Positions 22,104 to 30,796 of a DNA stretch of 56,549 nt are shown piece by piece (position 1 is the first letter of the stretch; the number at the start of each line of letters is the position of its first letter). Position numbers and translations under genes: made by a program. The notes under the pieces are model-generated. The model did no database searches and was not told the origin of the DNA. It saw only the letters and a list, made by a program, of their open reading frames with translations. Source of the DNA: Bacteroidaceae bacterium (GTDB lineage: Bacteria > Bacteroidota > Bacteroidia > Bacteroidales > Bacteroidaceae); the NCBI GenBank assembly GCA_017548075.1, contig JAFYNL010000044.1, positions 1 to 56,549 of the forward strand, in the 5' to 3' direction.

Positions 22104-22140
22104 AGCCCTTCTGTCACCAAGCGGAGGGGCTTTTTGTTTT
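22104..22140 (+). terminator. Terminator after cysK
   Basis: AGCCCTTC pairs with GGAGGGGCT (one G-T pair) and is followed by TTTTTGTTTTT. It marks the end of the core metY-cysK operon and the start of about 760 bases without a recognised gene. Confidence 0.8.
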
Positions 22141-22148
22141 TGCAAACT

Positions 22149-22268
22149 TGACCTGCGTCGAGCTGAATCTTAACGAGTGTCGTTTGCAAACTTCACGTGT
22201 GATCTTTGCAAAGTTAACGTGGGTCGTTGACGATTTACCTTAAGGTCTTTAGGGAATTACCTGTAGGT
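22149..22268. repeat. 22-bp palindrome array R3 with changing words
   Basis: In-register units start at 22149 (degenerate), 22171 (TAACGAGTGT), 22193 (TCACGTGTGA, perfect palindrome), 22215 (TAACGTGGGT), 22237 (ACCTTAAGGT, perfect) and 22259 (ACCTGTAGGT, perfect). All are 22 bases apart. Three different half-site words keep the same spacing, and the next register position (22281) is the first base of element A. Confidence 0.8.
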
Positions 22269-22280
22269 CTTTTATAAAGT

Positions 22281-22430
22281 ACTCTACACTCTACACCAGT
22301 CTGCCATAATCGATTGAAACTCAGCAATTAACGAGGGTGTAGAGGCTCTACATCACTCTACACCCACTCTACACCGCTGTATTCGTCTGTATATCAAAGC
22401 CTTAAGAGGGGTTGGTGTAGAGTGCAGAGT
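22281..22430. repeat. Paired-hairpin element A (150 bp, CTCTACAC words)
   Basis: Terminal inverted repeats of 17 bp (ACTCTACACTCTACACC and GGTGTAGAGTGCAGAGT, one mismatch) bound the element. Inside, CTCTACACC pairs with GGTGTAGAG (22336-22344). CACTCTACACC, present twice in tandem (22354, 22365), pairs perfectly with GGTGTAGAGTG (22414-22424) around a 38-base loop starting GCTGTATT. The layout matches element B base for base in spacing. No coding capacity. Confidence 0.85.
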
Positions 22431-22494
22431 GTTTTGAAAATTTCAGTTTGTTCGTTTTCCTCCTATATAATAAGATAATGCTTTTATTCATTTC

Positions 22495-22593
22495 CTCAAA
22501 ATTTATTTGGCAATTTTTCCCGAAATTCTCAAAATTTACTAAGCAGTTTTCTCCAAAATCCTCAAAATTTAAAGTGAAATGTTATTCCGATGA
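22495..22593. repeat. Three 33-bp iteron-like direct repeats
   Basis: CTCAAAATTTA recurs at 22495, 22528 and 22561, exactly 33 bases apart. Units 1 and 2 agree at 25 of 33 positions; unit 3 keeps mainly the first 11. They are AT-rich and lie midway between elements A and B. Confidence 0.7.
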
Positions 22594-22661
22594 TATGCTT
22601 TCGCAGTCTTGCGACAAAAGTTCCTGAAGTTATAGGGCTGCGAAATACTTTTTGCAAGAAC

Positions 22662-22810
22662 ACTCGTCACTCATCACCTTTTGCCTCTAACCAATTGATT
22701 ATTAGTTCTCTAACGATGTGATGAGTGCCTGACGACCCATCACCCACTCATCACCCATGTATTTTGCTGTATCTCAGCGGATTAAGTACCCTTGGTGACG
22801 AGTGATGAGT
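22662..22810. repeat. Paired-hairpin element B (149 bp, CTCATCAC words)
   Basis: Same architecture as element A with a different stem word. Arms are ACTCGTCACTCATCACC (22662-22678) and GGTGACGAGTGATGAGT (22794-22810). CTCATCAC pairs with GTGATGAG (22718-22725). CACTCATCACC (22745-22755) pairs with GGTGACGAGTG around a 38-base loop. That loop shares 23 of 38 positions with the loop of A, including TGTATT, CTGTAT, TCA and TTAAG in the same places. Confidence 0.85.
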
Positions 22811-22872
22811 ATTTTTGATTTTTCTTGATGCATTTTTCTTGGAGAGAATGTTGTAATATGAAAGGAAAATCG

Positions 22873-22880
22873 TATATTTG
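22873..22880 (+). promoter_or_regulatory. -7 box upstream of the helicase-methyltransferase operon
   Basis: TATATTTG fits TAnnTTTG. It is 19 bases before the small open frame at 22899 and about 320 bases before the helicase start; no closer match to the helicase was noticed. Confidence 0.55.
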
Positions 22881-22898
22881 CAGACGAAAGGGCATAAA

Positions 22899-23105
22899 AT
22901 GCTCCTTATGGAGCAACAAACCTCAGCGGAGGTGCCTTTCAATCTTATTGGTTATTATAGCGTTAGTGCTATATTCGGTGATGTCCCTGAACCTAGCAAA
23001 TTCATTATGACATTATGCACGAATAAGTACCAGCGCCTACGCGATAGCGTGGGCTGGGCTTATCTGCATGAATGGGGTTTTGCTAGGACCTTGGGACATC
23101 GATAA
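22899..23105 (+). CDS. Possible small protein (68 aa) or structured leader
   Basis: An ATG stands 19 bases after a -7 box and opens a 68-residue frame (MLLMEQQTSAEVPFNLIGYY...). I recognise no family. The same DNA holds several hairpins: TGCTCC-TTAT-GGAGCA over the start codon (22900-22915), CTACGC-GATA-GCGTGG near 23038-23053 and, after the stop, CTATCT-CCGAAC-AGATAG near 23152-23169. It may therefore be a regulatory leader of the helicase mRNA rather than a gene. Either reading is weakly supported. Confidence 0.3.
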   Translation: MLLMEQQTSAEVPFNLIGYYSVSAIFGDVPEPSKFIMTLCTNKYQRLRDSVGWAYLHEWGFARTLGHR

Positions 23106-23199
23106 GAGCGGTTCACGCTTTTATTGTGTCCTGAGGTTCTACGTTGATAACCCTATCTCCGAACAGATAGTCCTTTCGCGCGTTATCAATTGCGTAGAT

Positions 23200-26100
23200 A
23201 TGGCAGACACACCTCTCTCGTCTCATTTCTTTACAAACAGAGACGGAAATACGTTAATTAAAGAGTTTGAGGGCATTCTTACAAACAATCCTCAAATCAC
23301 GAATCTTGATGCAGTAGTAGGTTTCCTTCGTGCTTCAGGTTATTTCACTCTGCGCCCATTTCTCGATAATATCAACAAGGCTCGCATCTTGGTTGGCATT
23401 GATGTTGACAAATATATAGCAAAGGCTCAGCAAAAGGGAGTATTATTCTTAGCTGCCGAGGAAGACATTAAGGAAGAATGTCTGCGGATGTTGAAGGAAG
23501 ATATCGAGCAATCCCATTATACTAAGCAGGTTGAGGACGGGATGCTTCAGATGGTACAAGACTTAATCGATGGAAAATTGGAATTACGCGCTCATCCTTC
23601 GAAAAAGATTCATGCCAAATTCTATATTCTCTATCCCGACAACTTCAATCAACACACTTTTGGAGCTGCTATTACTGGCAGCAGCAATCTAAGTGGAAAT
23701 GGTCTGGGCATCGGAGATGATAAGCAATACGAGTTCAATGTAAAACTGACGCAATTTGATGATGTCTCGTTTGCCAAGAACGAGTTCGAATTGTTATGGG
23801 AAGAGGCAAAGGGTGTGCCTATTACTGCGGAAGACTATCAGGAAACAATAGACAAGACATATTTGAGGGGAGATGTGTCACCCTATGAACTTTACATAAA
23901 AATGCTGATGGAGTATTTCTCCGATAGAGTCTTGGAAATAGACAGGGACGACCCATTCGACATACCTGATGGCTATGACAAATTCGAATACCAGATGGAT
24001 GCTGTTGTCGAGGGCTATCAGAAGTTGTTGCGCTATGATGGTTTCTTCCTGGCCGATGTTGTGGGTTTGGGTAAGACAGTTATTGCCACAATGATTGCCA
24101 AGAAGTTCCTTATCGAAAACGGATACGAGCACACAAAAATTCTTGTGGTTTTCCCGCCAGCAGTAAAGGACAACTGGGTTTCTACATTCAGAGACTTTGG
24201 TATCGACAAATATGCCCGCTTTGTGTCAAACGGCAGTCTGGATAAGGTGCTGAGTGATGATGACCCTGAAATATGGAATGCCGAAGAATACGACCTTGTT
24301 TTGGTGGACGAGGCCCACAAGTTCCGCAACCATACAACTGGCGCTTTCCAGCAATTACAGGAAATCTGTAAGATGCCTCGATTGGAAACAGGCTACATTC
24401 CTGGCTACAAGAAGAAAGTGATGCTCATCTCTGCAACTCCGATGAACAATTCGCCTGCTGATATTTACTATCAGATTTTGATGTTCCAAGACCCTCGCCA
24501 ATGCACTATCGATGGTGTACCCAATCTGACCGCATTCTTCTCGCCCCTGATACAGGAATTCAAGAAGTTCCGCAGACAAGAAGATGCCGACTTGAAGCAA
24601 TACAAAAAGCTGGCAGAACGGGTTCGCGACAGAATTATAAAGCCTCTGACTGTTCGCAGAACGAGAACGGACATTGAAAGTATTGAGCGATATAAGAAAG
24701 ATGTCAAAGCGTTTCCTAAGGTAGAAAAACCTATCAAGAAAGAATATGAACTGAATGACCATTTGGCTGACCTCTTCGAGAAAGCAATGGAAACGCTTGA
24801 CAAGCGATTGAGCTATGCGCGTTATCAAGCAATTGCCTATTTAAAGCCCGATGCAGCACCAGGACTCTACGATAATGCGGAGGTTATCAGCCGCAGCTTG
24901 GCAGGCATCCGAAAGAATGGTATGGTAAAGCGACTGGAAAGCAGTTTCTACGCCTTTAAGATTTCTGTCGAGAACTTCCGCCAAGCCAACGAGAATCTAA
25001 TAAATATGTGGGAAAATGACCGCATATTCATCGCACCTGATATGGACATCAATTTGCTTTATTCGCAAGGATATTCCGATGATGAAATTGAGGAGAAGCT
25101 AAACGAGAAAGCAGAAGAAAACCCCAAGAATGCAGTCTTTTCGAGGAACGATTTTCGTCCTGAGTATATTGAAATGCTCCGCAAAGACCAAGTACTCCTC
25201 GAGCAAATGGAAAAGGAATGGGAGAACATTGATGATGCAGACGACTCGAAGTTTGCAAAGTTCGCAGACCTGCTGAAGCACGAACTCTTCAAGAAAGACA
25301 AGAATCCAGGCGGGAAACTTGTAGTCTTCTCAGAATCCGTTGATACCATTGAATATTTGGAAAGGCGTATAGGTCGTGATGATGTTCTTGTCATTTCTTC
25401 AAAAAATAGAGGCTCATACTTTAAGACTATTCGCGAGAACTTCGATGCCAACTGGAAAACGAAAAAGAACGACTATAATATCATTCTCACTTCCGATGTA
25501 TTGGCCGAAGGTGTGAACCTTCATCGCTCAAACATTATCATTAACTATGATACCCCTTGGAACTCTACTCGACTGATGCAGCGAATTGGTCGTGTGAATC
25601 GTATAGGCTCCACTTCGAACACCATCTTTAATTATGTATTCTATCCGTCTCGACAAGGCAATAAGCAGATAAGGCTCAATCAGATTGCCCTCAGTAAGAT
25701 TCAGACTTTCCACACTACATTTGGCGAGGACAACCAGATTTACTCTACAGACGAAATCATTGACCGCGACCTCGACAAACTCTTCAAGGAAGGCATCAAG
25801 CAAGAACAGGAAGACCGCAATCTAGAATTGCCTTTTTACGAAGAACTTCGAGCACTCTACAAAGAAGACCGCAAGGAGTACAAACGCATTTCCCAACTGT
25901 CTCTTAGAAGCAGAACTGGGCGTGAGCAACGTGAAGTGGATGGTGTAACGCTTTCTGGCGACACTCTGGTATTCCTGAAGACCAATTTCCGCAAGCTGTT
26001 TTATCTGGTCAATGATGAGCAAACGCGTGAACTTTCTGTGCTCGATGCGCTAAACTACTTCAAGGCAACACCCGACGAACAGGCTGTGCCAAGAATAATC

Positions 26101-26511
26101 CAGCATCACATTCATGTAGATAAGGCCCTCAATAGCTTTAATGTTGTAAAACAGCGAGAACTACAGGAGGAGGAAGCTAACCAGAACCAACGCAGCAATT
26201 TGGGTGCACAGGTTACAACAGCTATTAGTTTGATAAACTCTATGATGCCTCATATAGAAGATGGTGACATCCGATTGAAGTTGATACAGCTTAAGGAATT
26301 GGTAGAGCGAGGCACAATCACCAACATTGCCAAACGATTGCAGCGCATACAAAAGGATTTGCAAAAGCCAGGCAAAGCTAAGATGACTTTCGAAGTCGCC
26401 TTGAAACAAGTGCTCGATTTGGCAAACAAATACAATACCTATTATCGTGACACACAGCATGCTGAAGAAGAGTCTGCTGCCACAATCATTCTCTCTGAGA
26501 GTTTCCAATAA
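23200..26511 (+). CDS. PLD-nuclease/Snf2-type helicase fusion of a restriction-like defence module
   Basis: A 1103-residue protein. Residues about 1-200 form a phospholipase-D-like domain with HAKFY (HxK motif, His about 138) and GSSNLS (about 160). Then comes a superfamily 2 Snf2-like helicase: Walker A VGLGKT near 289-293, DEAH near 369-372, SAT near 410, and motifs V/VI (TSDVLAEGVNL, then QRIGRVNRIGS) near 765-805. The C-terminal 250 residues are helical and unknown. Only one HxK half-motif is visible, so an active PLD nuclease would need dimerisation. The start MADTPLSSHFF at 23200 is preferred to the ATG at 23068 because conserved-looking sequence begins there. The methyltransferase gene follows after 27 bases. 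The role inferred is DNA translocation and cleavage of unmodified foreign DNA. Confidence 0.85.
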   Translation: MADTPLSSHFFTNRDGNTLIKEFEGILTNNPQITNLDAVVGFLRASGYFTLRPFLDNINKARILVGIDVDKYIAKAQQKGVLFLAAEEDIKEECLRMLKEDIEQSHYTKQVEDGMLQMVQDLIDGKLELRAHPSKKIHAKFYILYPDNFNQHTFGAAITGSSNLSGNGLGIGDDKQYEFNVKLTQFDDVSFAKNEFELLWEEAKGVPITAEDYQETIDKTYLRGDVSPYELYIKMLMEYFSDRVLEIDRDDPFDIPDGYDKFEYQMDAVVEGYQKLLRYDGFFLADVVGLGKTVIATMIAKKFLIENGYEHTKILVVFPPAVKDNWVSTFRDFGIDKYARFVSNGSLDKVLSDDDPEIWNAEEYDLVLVDEAHKFRNHTTGAFQQLQEICKMPRLETGYIPGYKKKVMLISATPMNNSPADIYYQILMFQDPRQCTIDGVPNLTAFFSPLIQEFKKFRRQEDADLKQYKKLAERVRDRIIKPLTVRRTRTDIESIERYKKDVKAFPKVEKPIKKEYELNDHLADLFEKAMETLDKRLSYARYQAIAYLKPDAAPGLYDNAEVISRSLAGIRKNGMVKRLESSFYAFKISVENFRQANENLINMWENDRIFIAPDMDINLLYSQGYSDDEIEEKLNEKAEENPKNAVFSRNDFRPEYIEMLRKDQVLLEQMEKEWENIDDADDSKFAKFADLLKHELFKKDKNPGGKLVVFSESVDTIEYLERRIGRDDVLVISSKNRGSYFKTIRENFDANWKTKKNDYNIILTSDVLAEGVNLHRSNIIINYDTPWNSTRLMQRIGRVNRIGSTSNTIFNYVFYPSRQGNKQIRLNQIALSKIQTFHTTFGEDNQIYSTDEIIDRDLDKLFKEGIKQEQEDRNLELPFYEELRALYKEDRKEYKRISQLSLRSRTGREQREVDGVTLSGDTLVFLKTNFRKLFYLVNDEQTRELSVLDALNYFKATPDEQAVPRIIQHHIHVDKALNSFNVVKQRELQEEEANQNQRSNLGAQVTTAISLINSMMPHIEDGDIRLKLIQLKELVERGTITNIAKRLQRIQKDLQKPGKAKMTFEVALKQVLDLANKYNTYYRDTQHAEEESAATIILSESFQ

Positions 26512-26538
26512 CTTACCAACTCATAAAACCACTAACTC

Positions 26539-29500
26539 ATGAATTTTAAGGAAGTCATAGAATCGAGATACAACCGTCAGAACTGGCAACTATTATTGCA
26601 CGACATCTTCGGTAGCAAGATTAAGTTCTGGCAAACACCATCAGAAGTTCCCACAAGCAGCCCTTTTGCTCGTCAGGCTTTATGGCTTGGAACAATCACT
26701 TTGAGTGACGAACAGACCATCTCTGTATATGAAGTAGAGTTGGCAGATAGTGTGGATATAGAGCGCAATCGCAGAGGCATTCGCGATATGCTACTAACAG
26801 ATTGGCGCAATAACGGTAATGCAGGAGCTTTTATGTTCTGCTATCGCAAGAATGAGAGTGTGCTCCGTTTCTCATACGTCAGCGAGGCCTGGAAATTTGC
26901 CGATGATGGTACATATCAAAAAGAATCCACAGATACAAAACGATTTACCTATCTTTTGGGTGAAGGTCATCGCAGTCGTACTGCCATTCAGCAGTTCGAG
27001 AAATTGAAAGCAAGTGACCTTTCTCTGAAAGACCTGACAAAAGCGTTCTCTGTGGATGCTGTCAGCGACATGTTCTTCGCTGGTTATAAGAAGCAGTATG
27101 AAGATATTATCTTCTATGTTACAGGCAAGCGAATGGTGAAGGTTGCCAATAAATGGGAAGAACGTCAGGAAGGGAAGCCCAATGCCTTTATCATGCAGCA
27201 GTTTGCCCGTTTTGATAATCCTGAGAAAGCTGTTCGCGACTATGTGAAGAAACTGATGGGCCGTTTGGTATTCCTTCAGTTCTTGCAAAAGAAAGGATGG
27301 ATGGGTGTACCTGTCAATAAGGAATGGGGCGAAGGTGATGCGGAGTTTGTGCTTCATCTTTTTGAGCGATGTACAGATAAAGACCATTTCATAGATAATG
27401 TATTAGAGCCACTCTTTGATGATTTGAATACCGAACGCAAAAACGATCTTGTGTCGCCGGCTGTTGGCAGAAGTATTCGTGTCCCTTATCTAAATGGCGG
27501 TTTGTTCGAGCGTGAAGATACAGACGAAACCCAATTCCCTTTGCCTGGCAAATACATGGATTCGCTTCTTGCATTCTTTGCGTCATACAATTTCACTATC
27601 GATGAGAACGACCCAGACGATGCAGAAGTTGGTGTTGACCCAGAAATGTTGGGCCGCATCTTTGAGAACTTGTTGGAGGACAACAAAGACAAAGGAGCTT
27701 TCTATACGCCAAAGGAAATCGTTAGCTATATGTGTCGCGAAAGCCTAATCGCTTACTTGCAAACAGATGTTGAGGACGAACCGACAAAGGAGGCCATTCG
27801 TCAGTTCGTGACCACTCATGAAGTCAATGCCCTTGGCACTAACGACAAGTTCCGTCAACAGGTGGATGAAGCTTTGAAGAACGTCAAAATCTGCGACCCT
27901 GCAATTGGCTCTGGCGCATTCCCTATGGGCTTGCTGAAAGAACTCTTCCTTTGTCGTACAGCTATTGAAGGCATTGAACAAAGCAAAGCAGCGGAAATCA
28001 AGAAACATATCATTCAGCAGAATATCTATGGCGTAGATATTGAACGTGGTGCTGTTGATATTGCCCGCCTCCGTTTCTGGCTCTCCCTAATTGTTGATGA
28101 AGAAACGCCGCAGGCTCTGCCAAACCTCGACTTCAAGATTATGCAGGGCAACTCGCTGTTGGAGCAGTACAAGGGTGTTGACCTTTCAACGATGACGGAA
28201 GTCACGACAGAAAAACATGGTACAGTACAACTGACGTGGTACGATAATCAGTTAGATGATTTACGTCGTCGTTTACGTGAAATGCTAACAGAGTACTACG
28301 ACTGTACCGACCATCACAAAAAGCAAAGTCTTCGGGCAAAGATTATCGATAACGTAAAGCAACAATTACGCGAGCAAAGCATCAACGTTGACTTTGGAGA
28401 CCTTGACCTCTCAGGTAATAACCAATTCATGCTTTGGCACACCTGGTTCTATGATGTATTCTCGCAAGGTGGGTTTGATATTGTAATTGGCAATCCGCCG
28501 TATATTAGACCACATAAGGTGAAAGATGATGAAAAAGTTGTTTTGTGGAAGAAGTATTATGTAGCCCAGCAAAAAACAGATATCTACGCTTTCTTTATTG
28601 AAAAGGGTTGTCAGTTGCTAAGAGTAAATGGTCTTCTATCATTCATTACACCCAAAACGTGGTATAGTCTTTATTCATTCAAGAAATTAAGAGATATTTT
28701 GCTCCACGAATACGATATTGTCCAAATAGGTGTTCTTCCAGAAAAGGTATTCGATAGTGCAACAGTAGAGACTGCACTTTTATTTGTAATAAATGACAAC
28801 AAGTCTTCAGATATCCTTTTCAAAGACGTTTATAAAGACACTCTGATTGCAAGTAGGTCTAAAGAATCAATATTAGCAGATGCTGATTTGAATATAAACA
28901 TCGAAGAAACACAACATACAGACTCAACTCCATTAGGTGATTTGTGCAAAATAATTGTTGGTATTGTTAGTGGTAATGATAAAAAGTATTGTCGATATGA
29001 GAAAATGACGGATCTTGATAAACCATGTATACGAGGGACAAACATATCAAGATATACCATTAATTATACAGGGGAATATATTTGGTATGACAGAGATCAG
29101 ATAATTTGGGATGGAAACCACAAACCAAAAAGTTCACTAAAGCAAGCTGTTGGTCAAAGTAGCCCCAAAAAACCAGAAGACTTTGAATTACCCCAAAAGA
29201 TAGTAATGCAGCGTATTTCAAAGAAGATAATTGCTGCATTGGATACGAATCAGTATTATGCACATAGTTCTGTAGTTATCATTAAGCCCAGTGAAAGTTA
29301 TGACCTGAAAGTTATCTTGGCTATACTGAACTCGAAATATGTAGATTCTTGGCTGAAGAAAAACTCCTCCAATATATCTATCAATATAGGTACTGTAAAA
29401 AAGATTCCAATTCCATCTGTTACAATCAATCAACAGGCGGAAATTGTCTCATTAATTGATAAGATTCATGATGCAAAACGAGAGAATCCCTCTGCCGACA

Positions 29501-29589
29501 CCTCTGCCTTAGAATCCGAAATCGACCGTCTCGTCTATCACCTCTATGGCTTGACGGAAGAAGAAATCAAAATCGTAGAACAATCATAA
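26539..29589 (+). CDS. Eco57I-type DNA adenine N6-methyltransferase (restriction-modification)
   Basis: A 1016-residue protein. The N-terminal ~350 residues include VYEVELADSVDIERNRRGIR, a possible degenerate nuclease-like or family-specific region. The MTase core has motif I ICDPAIGSGAF (Asp about 453) and the catalytic NPPY motif at about 651-654. Residues about 740-1016 resemble a type I-like target-recognition domain, ending with IPIPSVTINQQAEIVSLIDKI. It should methylate adenine in a specific site and so protect self DNA. The DNA from about 28490 onward is visibly more AT-rich than the first 2 kb, as expected if the recognition part was exchanged. It pairs with the upstream helicase. Confidence 0.9.
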   Translation: MNFKEVIESRYNRQNWQLLLHDIFGSKIKFWQTPSEVPTSSPFARQALWLGTITLSDEQTISVYEVELADSVDIERNRRGIRDMLLTDWRNNGNAGAFMFCYRKNESVLRFSYVSEAWKFADDGTYQKESTDTKRFTYLLGEGHRSRTAIQQFEKLKASDLSLKDLTKAFSVDAVSDMFFAGYKKQYEDIIFYVTGKRMVKVANKWEERQEGKPNAFIMQQFARFDNPEKAVRDYVKKLMGRLVFLQFLQKKGWMGVPVNKEWGEGDAEFVLHLFERCTDKDHFIDNVLEPLFDDLNTERKNDLVSPAVGRSIRVPYLNGGLFEREDTDETQFPLPGKYMDSLLAFFASYNFTIDENDPDDAEVGVDPEMLGRIFENLLEDNKDKGAFYTPKEIVSYMCRESLIAYLQTDVEDEPTKEAIRQFVTTHEVNALGTNDKFRQQVDEALKNVKICDPAIGSGAFPMGLLKELFLCRTAIEGIEQSKAAEIKKHIIQQNIYGVDIERGAVDIARLRFWLSLIVDEETPQALPNLDFKIMQGNSLLEQYKGVDLSTMTEVTTEKHGTVQLTWYDNQLDDLRRRLREMLTEYYDCTDHHKKQSLRAKIIDNVKQQLREQSINVDFGDLDLSGNNQFMLWHTWFYDVFSQGGFDIVIGNPPYIRPHKVKDDEKVVLWKKYYVAQQKTDIYAFFIEKGCQLLRVNGLLSFITPKTWYSLYSFKKLRDILLHEYDIVQIGVLPEKVFDSATVETALLFVINDNKSSDILFKDVYKDTLIASRSKESILADADLNINIEETQHTDSTPLGDLCKIIVGIVSGNDKKYCRYEKMTDLDKPCIRGTNISRYTINYTGEYIWYDRDQIIWDGNHKPKSSLKQAVGQSSPKKPEDFELPQKIVMQRISKKIIAALDTNQYYAHSSVVIIKPSESYDLKVILAILNSKYVDSWLKKNSSNISINIGTVKKIPIPSVTINQQAEIVSLIDKIHDAKRENPSADTSALESEIDRLVYHLYGLTEEEIKIVEQS

Positions 29590-30705: not shown

Positions 30706-30709
30706 CTTG

Positions 30710-30796
30710 TGCCCGGAACGGGAATCGAACCCGTACGGCCATCACTGGCCAAGGGATTTTAAGTCCCTCGTGTCTACCAATTCCACCATCTGGGCA
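30710..30796 (-). tRNA. tRNA-Leu (anticodon UAA)
   Basis: The minus strand folds as an 87-base class II tRNA. The acceptor arms are TGCCCAG and TTCCGGGCA, the D-loop is GGTAGACA, the anticodon loop is ACTTAAAAT with TAA, a long variable arm is closed by GGCCAGTGATGGCC, and the T-arm has GGTTCGATTC. CCA is not encoded. Its 3' end faces the accessory island. Confidence 0.95.

Follow-up and report, generated by a model that had tools for sequence, protein, structure and literature searches.

Two inverted-repeat elements in a Bacteroidaceae genome as probable orphan origins of VapE/DUF3874 initiators

Here we examine two inverted-repeat elements, A and B, in a 56,549-nt stretch of Bacteroidaceae DNA (the window; contig C38, JAFYNL010000044.1, of the 66-contig, 2.66-Mb assembly G000, GCA_017548075.1, which is 88% complete). 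Overall, comparison of sequences suggests that they are probably orphan, dispersed copies of an iteron-type origin that serves a group of small Bacteroidales initiators (Rep), and that the heptads in their arms are read by the wing of the DUF3874 domain of those proteins. The parts of this proposal differ in strength. Binding of the heptads by DUF3874 is very likely, and it is reasonably likely that the bound site is a replication origin, which we argue by analogy with the Rep of Staphylococcus aureus pathogenicity islands (SaPIs) and with Cch2. The observations beneath it are the linkage of element to gene, an association between Rep residues and element words, the fold, the several contexts in which gene and element occur, and the absence of the element from the orthologous sites examined.

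A and B lie exactly where the sequence-only reading of the window, which first drew attention to the pair, had placed them, and the arm order, the spacing and the 23 of 38 loop bases that it described as shared (61% identity) were likewise recovered. Comparison with gene-linked copies gives the minus strand as their natural orientation, in which the layout runs ACTCxxC ACTCxxC ACC, a spacer of 37-39 nt, an inner heptad block in both orientations, a second spacer and two inverted heptads; both elements are imperfect palindromes, with a second loop that has diverged from the reverse complement of the first. Scores below come from a covariance model, R1, built from eight copies with A and B among the training rows, and family-level statements from the 105 elements introduced further on.

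22281..22430, minus strand: element A, 150 bp, putative orphan iteron origin with the TAC word (GGTGTAGAGT); R1 match of 140 bits, A being a training row
22281..22297, plus strand: A, putative outer iterons ACTCTAC-ACTCTAC-ACC (sequence)
22298..22335, no strand: A, spacer (across the family, spacers average 65-66% AT and arms 49%)
22336..22375, no strand: A, putative inner iteron block in both orientations (sequence, repeats)
22376..22413, no strand: A, spacer, diverged reverse complement of the other A spacer (family level)
22414..22430, minus strand: A, putative outer iterons, inverted, ACTCTGC-ACTCTAC-ACC on the minus strand (pattern match 22414-22429)
22662..22810, minus strand: element B, 149 bp, putative orphan iteron origin with the RTC word (GGTGAYGAGT); R1 match of 161 bits, B being a training row
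22662..22678, plus strand: B, putative outer iterons ACTCGTC-ACTCATC-ACC (pattern match)
22679..22717, no strand: B, spacer (sequence; family level)
22718..22755, no strand: B, putative inner iteron block in both orientations (sequence, repeats)
22756..22793, no strand: B, spacer (sequence; family level)
22794..22810, minus strand: B, putative outer iterons, inverted, ACTCATC-ACTCGTC-ACC on the minus strand (pattern match)

The further statement that every arm is matched by its own reverse complement holds in general and fails in three places: one outer heptad of A reads ACTCTGC against ACTCTAC, the outer heptads of B (ACTCGTC/ACTCATC) stand in an order that mispairs at two positions, and the inner block of B contains one deviating unit, CCCATCACC. 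A is 83% identical to the origin 3' of a Rep with arginine at residue 388 (L105) and 68% identical to that of this genome's own histidine-388 Rep, and B is 83% identical to the latter origin (L016). The two elements are thus nearest to two different rep-linked origin types, and need not be a single element that has undergone compensatory mutation. The word of B is also that of this genome's own Rep (L169, H388/K390), while A would, by its word, need an R388 Rep.

The recurrent inverted-repeat family to which they belong is real, and its word does change together within each copy. A scan of 139 genomes of the genus with R1 (E up to 0.01, at most 22 candidates scored per genome) found matches in at least 37, this genome included. 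From 88 sources (80 stretches around the best-listed matches, the window and seven loci) we placed 105 elements, which are part of the family and include A, B and eight others in this genome; heptad agreement was computed on 101 of them and spacer statistics on 80. The majority core of the word is TGAYG in 65 of the 105, TGTAG in 37 and another sequence in three. The second spacer aligns with the reverse complement of the first better than a shuffle does in 61 of the 80, in which spacers are 65-66% AT and arms 49%. At the cysK locus, no element was present at 29 orthologous loci (the best among 103 matching relatives), and at another locus close relatives differ in the element type that lies 3' of the same gene: L345 (RTC-ACC) and L348 (RTC-AGG, with a truncated 5' arm) share a 3' flank, L346 and L347 carry tandem pairs, and L349 has no element.

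Tandem pairs of two origin types recur, with an RTC word followed by a TAC or TTC/TAC word about 12-25 bp away (L119, L117, L128, L127, L129, L134, L109, L111, L103 and L107), and the window shows the same order, B then A on the minus strand, at a distance of 231 bp.

The link to a protein comes from the complete form. Nine of the 105 elements lie directly 3' of a gene of about 400 codons, and all ten genus Rep genes of at least 74% identity are closely followed on their 3' side by an element; in the close clade the site begins about 20 nt or less from the stop codon. The product matches the VapE-like family PF05272 (4e-30) and DUF3874, PF12990 (1.2e-12), as well as phage helicase/primase families (best 2.2e-41), and its helicase fold resembles that of PriRep1 (PDB 7pds), which we take to be a satellite initiator. 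Across eight rep loci, what is similar at the DNA level is the gene together with its element and some of the 5' leader. Read by eye, the neighbours define at least five genomic settings, including three loci with common 3' but different 5' neighbours, and the open reading frames (ORFs) flanking the eight loci are housekeeping, plasmid-like or restriction-modification genes. In PLSDB, the more distant relatives are labelled as VapE domain proteins or as proteins of the BT4734/BF3469 family. Close relatives were absent from viral sequences: a scan of viral contigs with two short patterns gave 24 loci of 31% identity or less, the best-listed of 487 phage records reached 36% or less, and among arm patterns in viral contigs RTC occurred in none and TAC in five, with a best R1 score of 24 bits.

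Beyond the genus, one scan of GTDB contigs yielded 58 named Rep loci, mostly titled as rumen or gut Bacteroidales. The 33 Reps of at least 60% identity have gene-specific words directly 3' (GGTGAAG, GTGAAGA, ATGTAGAG and ACTTCAC, for example), and more distant Reps often have other 3' words, such as AGGT-bearing ones. In a test of 3' words on 56 of the 58 loci (L234 and L263 left out, the partial L249 kept), 23 Reps scored at least 5, compared with none of 2240 shuffles and one of 136 control ORFs; at a score of at least 4 the counts were 35, 18 and 6, respectively. Among the low scorers, words are nonetheless visible to the eye in L250 and L254. Scores of 2-3 characterise a sub-clade near 57% identity (L237, L239-L243, L245, L247, L248, L252 and L260), whose C-terminus is often KETNKGMKYQLIE and whose origin may lie elsewhere.

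The evidence that bears most directly on recognition is an apparent code between the protein and the word. A motif, G[CFY]xxx[H/R]xXxG, corresponds to residues 383-392 of the Rep P0001; its residues 388 and 390 belong to the wing of the winged helix at the C-terminus. Scoring of the code covered 34 of the 58 loci, namely all 33 of at least 60% identity together with L238, which was added once its word had been seen; the 24 loci below 60% were left unscored. Histidine at residue 388 goes with TGA in 27 of 27 cases and arginine with TGT in seven of seven, and the residue at position 390 (X) goes with the two preceding bases: lysine with GG (12/12), arginine with TG (12/12) and tyrosine with CC (2/2), the rarer residues being methionine (CA, TA), threonine (AA, AA, TA), serine (AA) and asparagine (AG, GG). 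Label permutation, which ignores kinship, reached at most 23 agreements against the 31 of 34 observed. On a tree of 31 of the 34 scored Reps, built with the DUF3874 columns excluded, H/R and the scored base change five times each, the prefix changes 10 times and X 12 times. Where branches are well supported, the independent pairs agree in 4 of 4 cases for H/R, 3.5 of 4 for K/GG and 3 of 3 for R/TG, with none opposed. Near-isogenic natural pairs separate the body of Rep from its C-terminus. A later set of 18 new Reps contained two with the motif, of which L325 fits both rules and L326 fits the H rule, its X being a histidine, for which there is no rule. Association shows that Rep and word belong together, and because the word tracks Rep residues and does so repeatedly on the tree, the arms look like the iterons of a SaPI-type Rep-ori module.

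A general pathway can be proposed. In the complete form, the origin would lie just 3' of rep, and the two would together occupy roughly 1.4-1.6 kb of chromosome as a cassette that stands alone, encoding a small Bacteroidales protein in which a VapE-like AAA+ helicase is coupled to a C-terminal DUF3874 winged helix. The arm heptads would be iterons read by the wing, and the inverted iteron sets would bracket AT-rich spacers to be melted; DNA binding, origin firing and helicase loading would all be part of this pathway. A shared Rep would explain why the stem words change in concert, since every iteron of an origin has to suit the same protein and the wing residues differ among Reps. Loose origins may then have spread by recombination or Rep-driven copying, and it is possible, at a little less than even odds, that they still answer Rep in trans.

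The class of mechanism is already known. Iterons flank an AT-rich region in SaPI-type origins, and the SaPI Rep-ori is said, in work by Ubeda in 2007, to consist of an iteron origin 3' of rep whose specificity resides in the C-terminus. Rep shares its VapE-type AAA+ helicase with the SaPI Rep-ori system, with PriRep1 (7pds) and with the SaPI5 primase-helicase (7om0, 7ola), and the SaPI system has short iterons directly 3' of rep, as here, although A and B themselves lack an adjacent rep. A passage of PMC7581432 assigns SaPI origin specificity to the C-terminal domain, and another states that the isolated C-terminal domain of Cch2, from the staphylococcal cassette chromosome mec (SCCmec), binds direct repeats downstream of its gene. 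Cch2 is similar in being a helicase with repeats (a putative origin) downstream of its gene; it differs in belonging to another helicase family (Primase_Cterm/D5) and in residing within a large, recombinase-bearing cassette.

At the same time, several results weigh against this proposal. The residue-word rule was spotted by eye on the same data before it was counted, and the core pattern left A and T as the sole choices at the scored base. With so few independent pairs, the sign test does not reach significance (p 0.125 and 0.25). In some Reps the modal prefix leads by a small margin (L236, GG 3 against GA 2; L234, AG 4 against GG 2). Of the 56 Reps whose 3' words were tested, 21 scored below 4, including the sub-clade near 57% identity and most Reps below 50%, and L213, L236 and L246 reached 4 through a non-iteron 7-mer. 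A Rep of at least 74% identity is present in eight of the 37 element-bearing genomes and was not found in the other 29 (metagenome-assembled genomes, 62-97% complete); G007 and G037 carry strong elements with no Rep match at 1e-10, and this 88% complete assembly, with one Rep match only, has no cognate R388 Rep for A. Spacers alone separate A and B from the rep-linked origins less clearly (A: L105 0.76, L016 0.68, L108 0.63; B: L016 0.76, L105 0.71). Finally, neither target duplication nor a recombinase was seen, though neither was searched for systematically.

The site might instead be an operator for Rep, or a terminator or attenuator after rep. Its palindromic form and, in the close clade, its position within about 20 nt of the stop codon would suit such a role. 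However, AT-rich spacers with tandem iterons are typical of origins, the helicase fold is like that of PriRep1, and loose copies adjoin unrelated genes, so that we consider this unlikely.

We think it quite unlikely that the elements are ordinary miniature inverted-repeat transposable elements (MITEs) of an unseen transposase, in which the arms would be the ends bound by that enzyme and the link to VapE would stem from capture in a single lineage. They do have the form of MITEs, being multi-copy, with no long ORF and with ends of GAAATCAAAAAC and GTTTTTGATTTC or GTTTTGCAAAA, the terminal inverted repeats reaching GAAATCAAAAAC in many copies; and there is a precedent in a relative, the BrickBuilt MITE of Porphyromonas gingivalis, likewise described in part of PMC4596501 as a dispersed intergenic repeat with inverted ends in a Bacteroidales genome. 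That account, as far as the part goes, gives BrickBuilt IS5-like ends (GAGACC...; table 2), which the ends here do not match, and a 23-nt minisatellite, and describes no rep gene. Moreover, gene-specific words recur 3' of rep in other Rep lineages, with other words, the code ties words to Rep and not to a transposase, and no target duplication was apparent by eye in the flanks; of transposases, Y1_Tnp alone was tested.

The sequence-only reading had taken the covarying stems as the mark of a selected RNA or single-stranded DNA structure, such as a transcribed hairpin or the target of a single-stranded-DNA-binding protein. The folds are strong: on both strands of A and B, z against dinucleotide shuffles is -5.3 to -6.6, and none of 200 shuffles was as good for any of the four. 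In an alignment of eight copies, both partners vary in 5 of the 36 predicted pairs, and agreement is slightly higher for inverted than for direct copies. Yet heptads that would not pair agree about as well as those that would. Among the 101 elements, the variable dinucleotide agrees at 0.55 (a1:d1) and 0.52 (a2:d2) for would-pair heptads, at 0.67 (a2:d1) and 0.49 (a1:d2) for non-pairing ones, and at 0.43 (a1:a2; shuffle mean 0.29, maximum 0.42) and 0.49 (d1:d2; shuffle mean 0.22, maximum 0.34) for direct copies. Because paired, unpaired and direct heptads agree alike, the word acts as a unit, as is expected of iterons. The commonest class (10 of the 101) mispairs at two positions, although the next (six) pairs fully there, and the word tracks Rep residues. 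No Rfam family matched the elements at gathering score, the window matching only 5S rRNA, the end of the large-subunit rRNA and two tRNAs. Selection for pairing is therefore very unlikely as the explanation, and the matching changes in A and B, judged from these comparisons, look like protein-DNA recognition and not RNA folding. A cruciform or single-stranded DNA structure may still have a role in A and B, and the heptads may be kept alike in part by quasi-palindrome correction or by conversion between copies.

Spread as repetitive extragenic palindromes (REPs) or bacterial interspersed mosaic elements by a REP-associated tyrosine transposase (RAYT, Y1) is most improbable, for although the repeats are palindromic and GTAG or CGTC, which a part of PMC3733652 gives as REP tags, occurs in some words, many family words lack either tag, the words are tied to Rep, the element is 150 bp against the 20-40 bp which that part gives for REPs, and Y1_Tnp, present in six of 16 genomes tested, is missing from this assembly and from five of nine other element-bearing genomes.

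Returning to the orphan-origin proposal, one extension would be a transposase-free mobile class, in which rep-ori cassettes of about 1.5 kb and non-autonomous loose origins, their specificity set by a code of two wing residues, would spread among Bacteroidales chromosomes, either through copying and reinsertion driven by Rep or through homologous exchange at their ends; we put this forward tentatively, as somewhat doubtful. As far as the literature searched extends, the free-standing cassette, the swarm of loose origins, the role of DUF3874 and the two-residue code are new, and DUF3874 is named in no paper of that literature.

The surroundings of A and B contain further repeats. An array of units of about 22 bp with palindromic cores (ACCTTAAGGT, CACGTG) at 22137-22275 abuts A, as such arrays abut many other elements, and similar arrays occur 3' of cysK in relatives that lack any element (L274, L277). 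Between A and B, a 13-bp core (TCCTCAAAATTTA..) is repeated three times at 33-bp spacing (22493-22571). Beside an element at L144 (G015:C45), an ORF of repeated SFNPRPYERGD / SIHAPTRGAT-like peptides looks like a translated array of clustered regularly interspaced short palindromic repeats (CRISPR).

Downstream, the operon is defence-like, as had been supposed: 23068-29589 encodes a helicase of the SNF2 type that also has an HKD-like match (DrmD/PLD-helicase relatives), together with an Eco57I/PglX-like methylase; after these come two small genes that fit no clear family. This stretch is perhaps a defence island insertion, ending near a tRNA-Leu (30709-30795); nothing found in this analysis ties A or B to it. 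A conserved promoter or leader stretch (GAAAGGGCATAAAATG..CTCAGCGGAGGTGC..GCGTGGGCTG) precedes the helicase gene at 22868-23130 and recurs over 32-258 bp in 21 of the 139 genus genomes, this one included. At 14 loci read by eye, six have restriction-modification or defence-like genes next (HsdM-like L375, HKD-helicase-like L372, DUF4011-like L376, and methylases at L373, L170, which overlaps L378, and L172), the others having unknown or secreted-protein genes. The stretch, without an Rfam match at gathering score, may be a shared leader RNA or promoter.

Regardless of how the loose copies spread, the association of Rep and word gives DUF3874 a likely job, that of an origin-reading winged helix, and the residue-to-base code may allow the site to be predicted from the protein sequence. 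The stem covariation seen here seems to be protein-DNA co-evolution, and as such a trap for RNA discovery from covariation alone. In this context, the solitary VapE/DUF3874 genes of gut and rumen Bacteroidales chromosomes may be minimal replicons, with origins that lie nearby or are dispersed.
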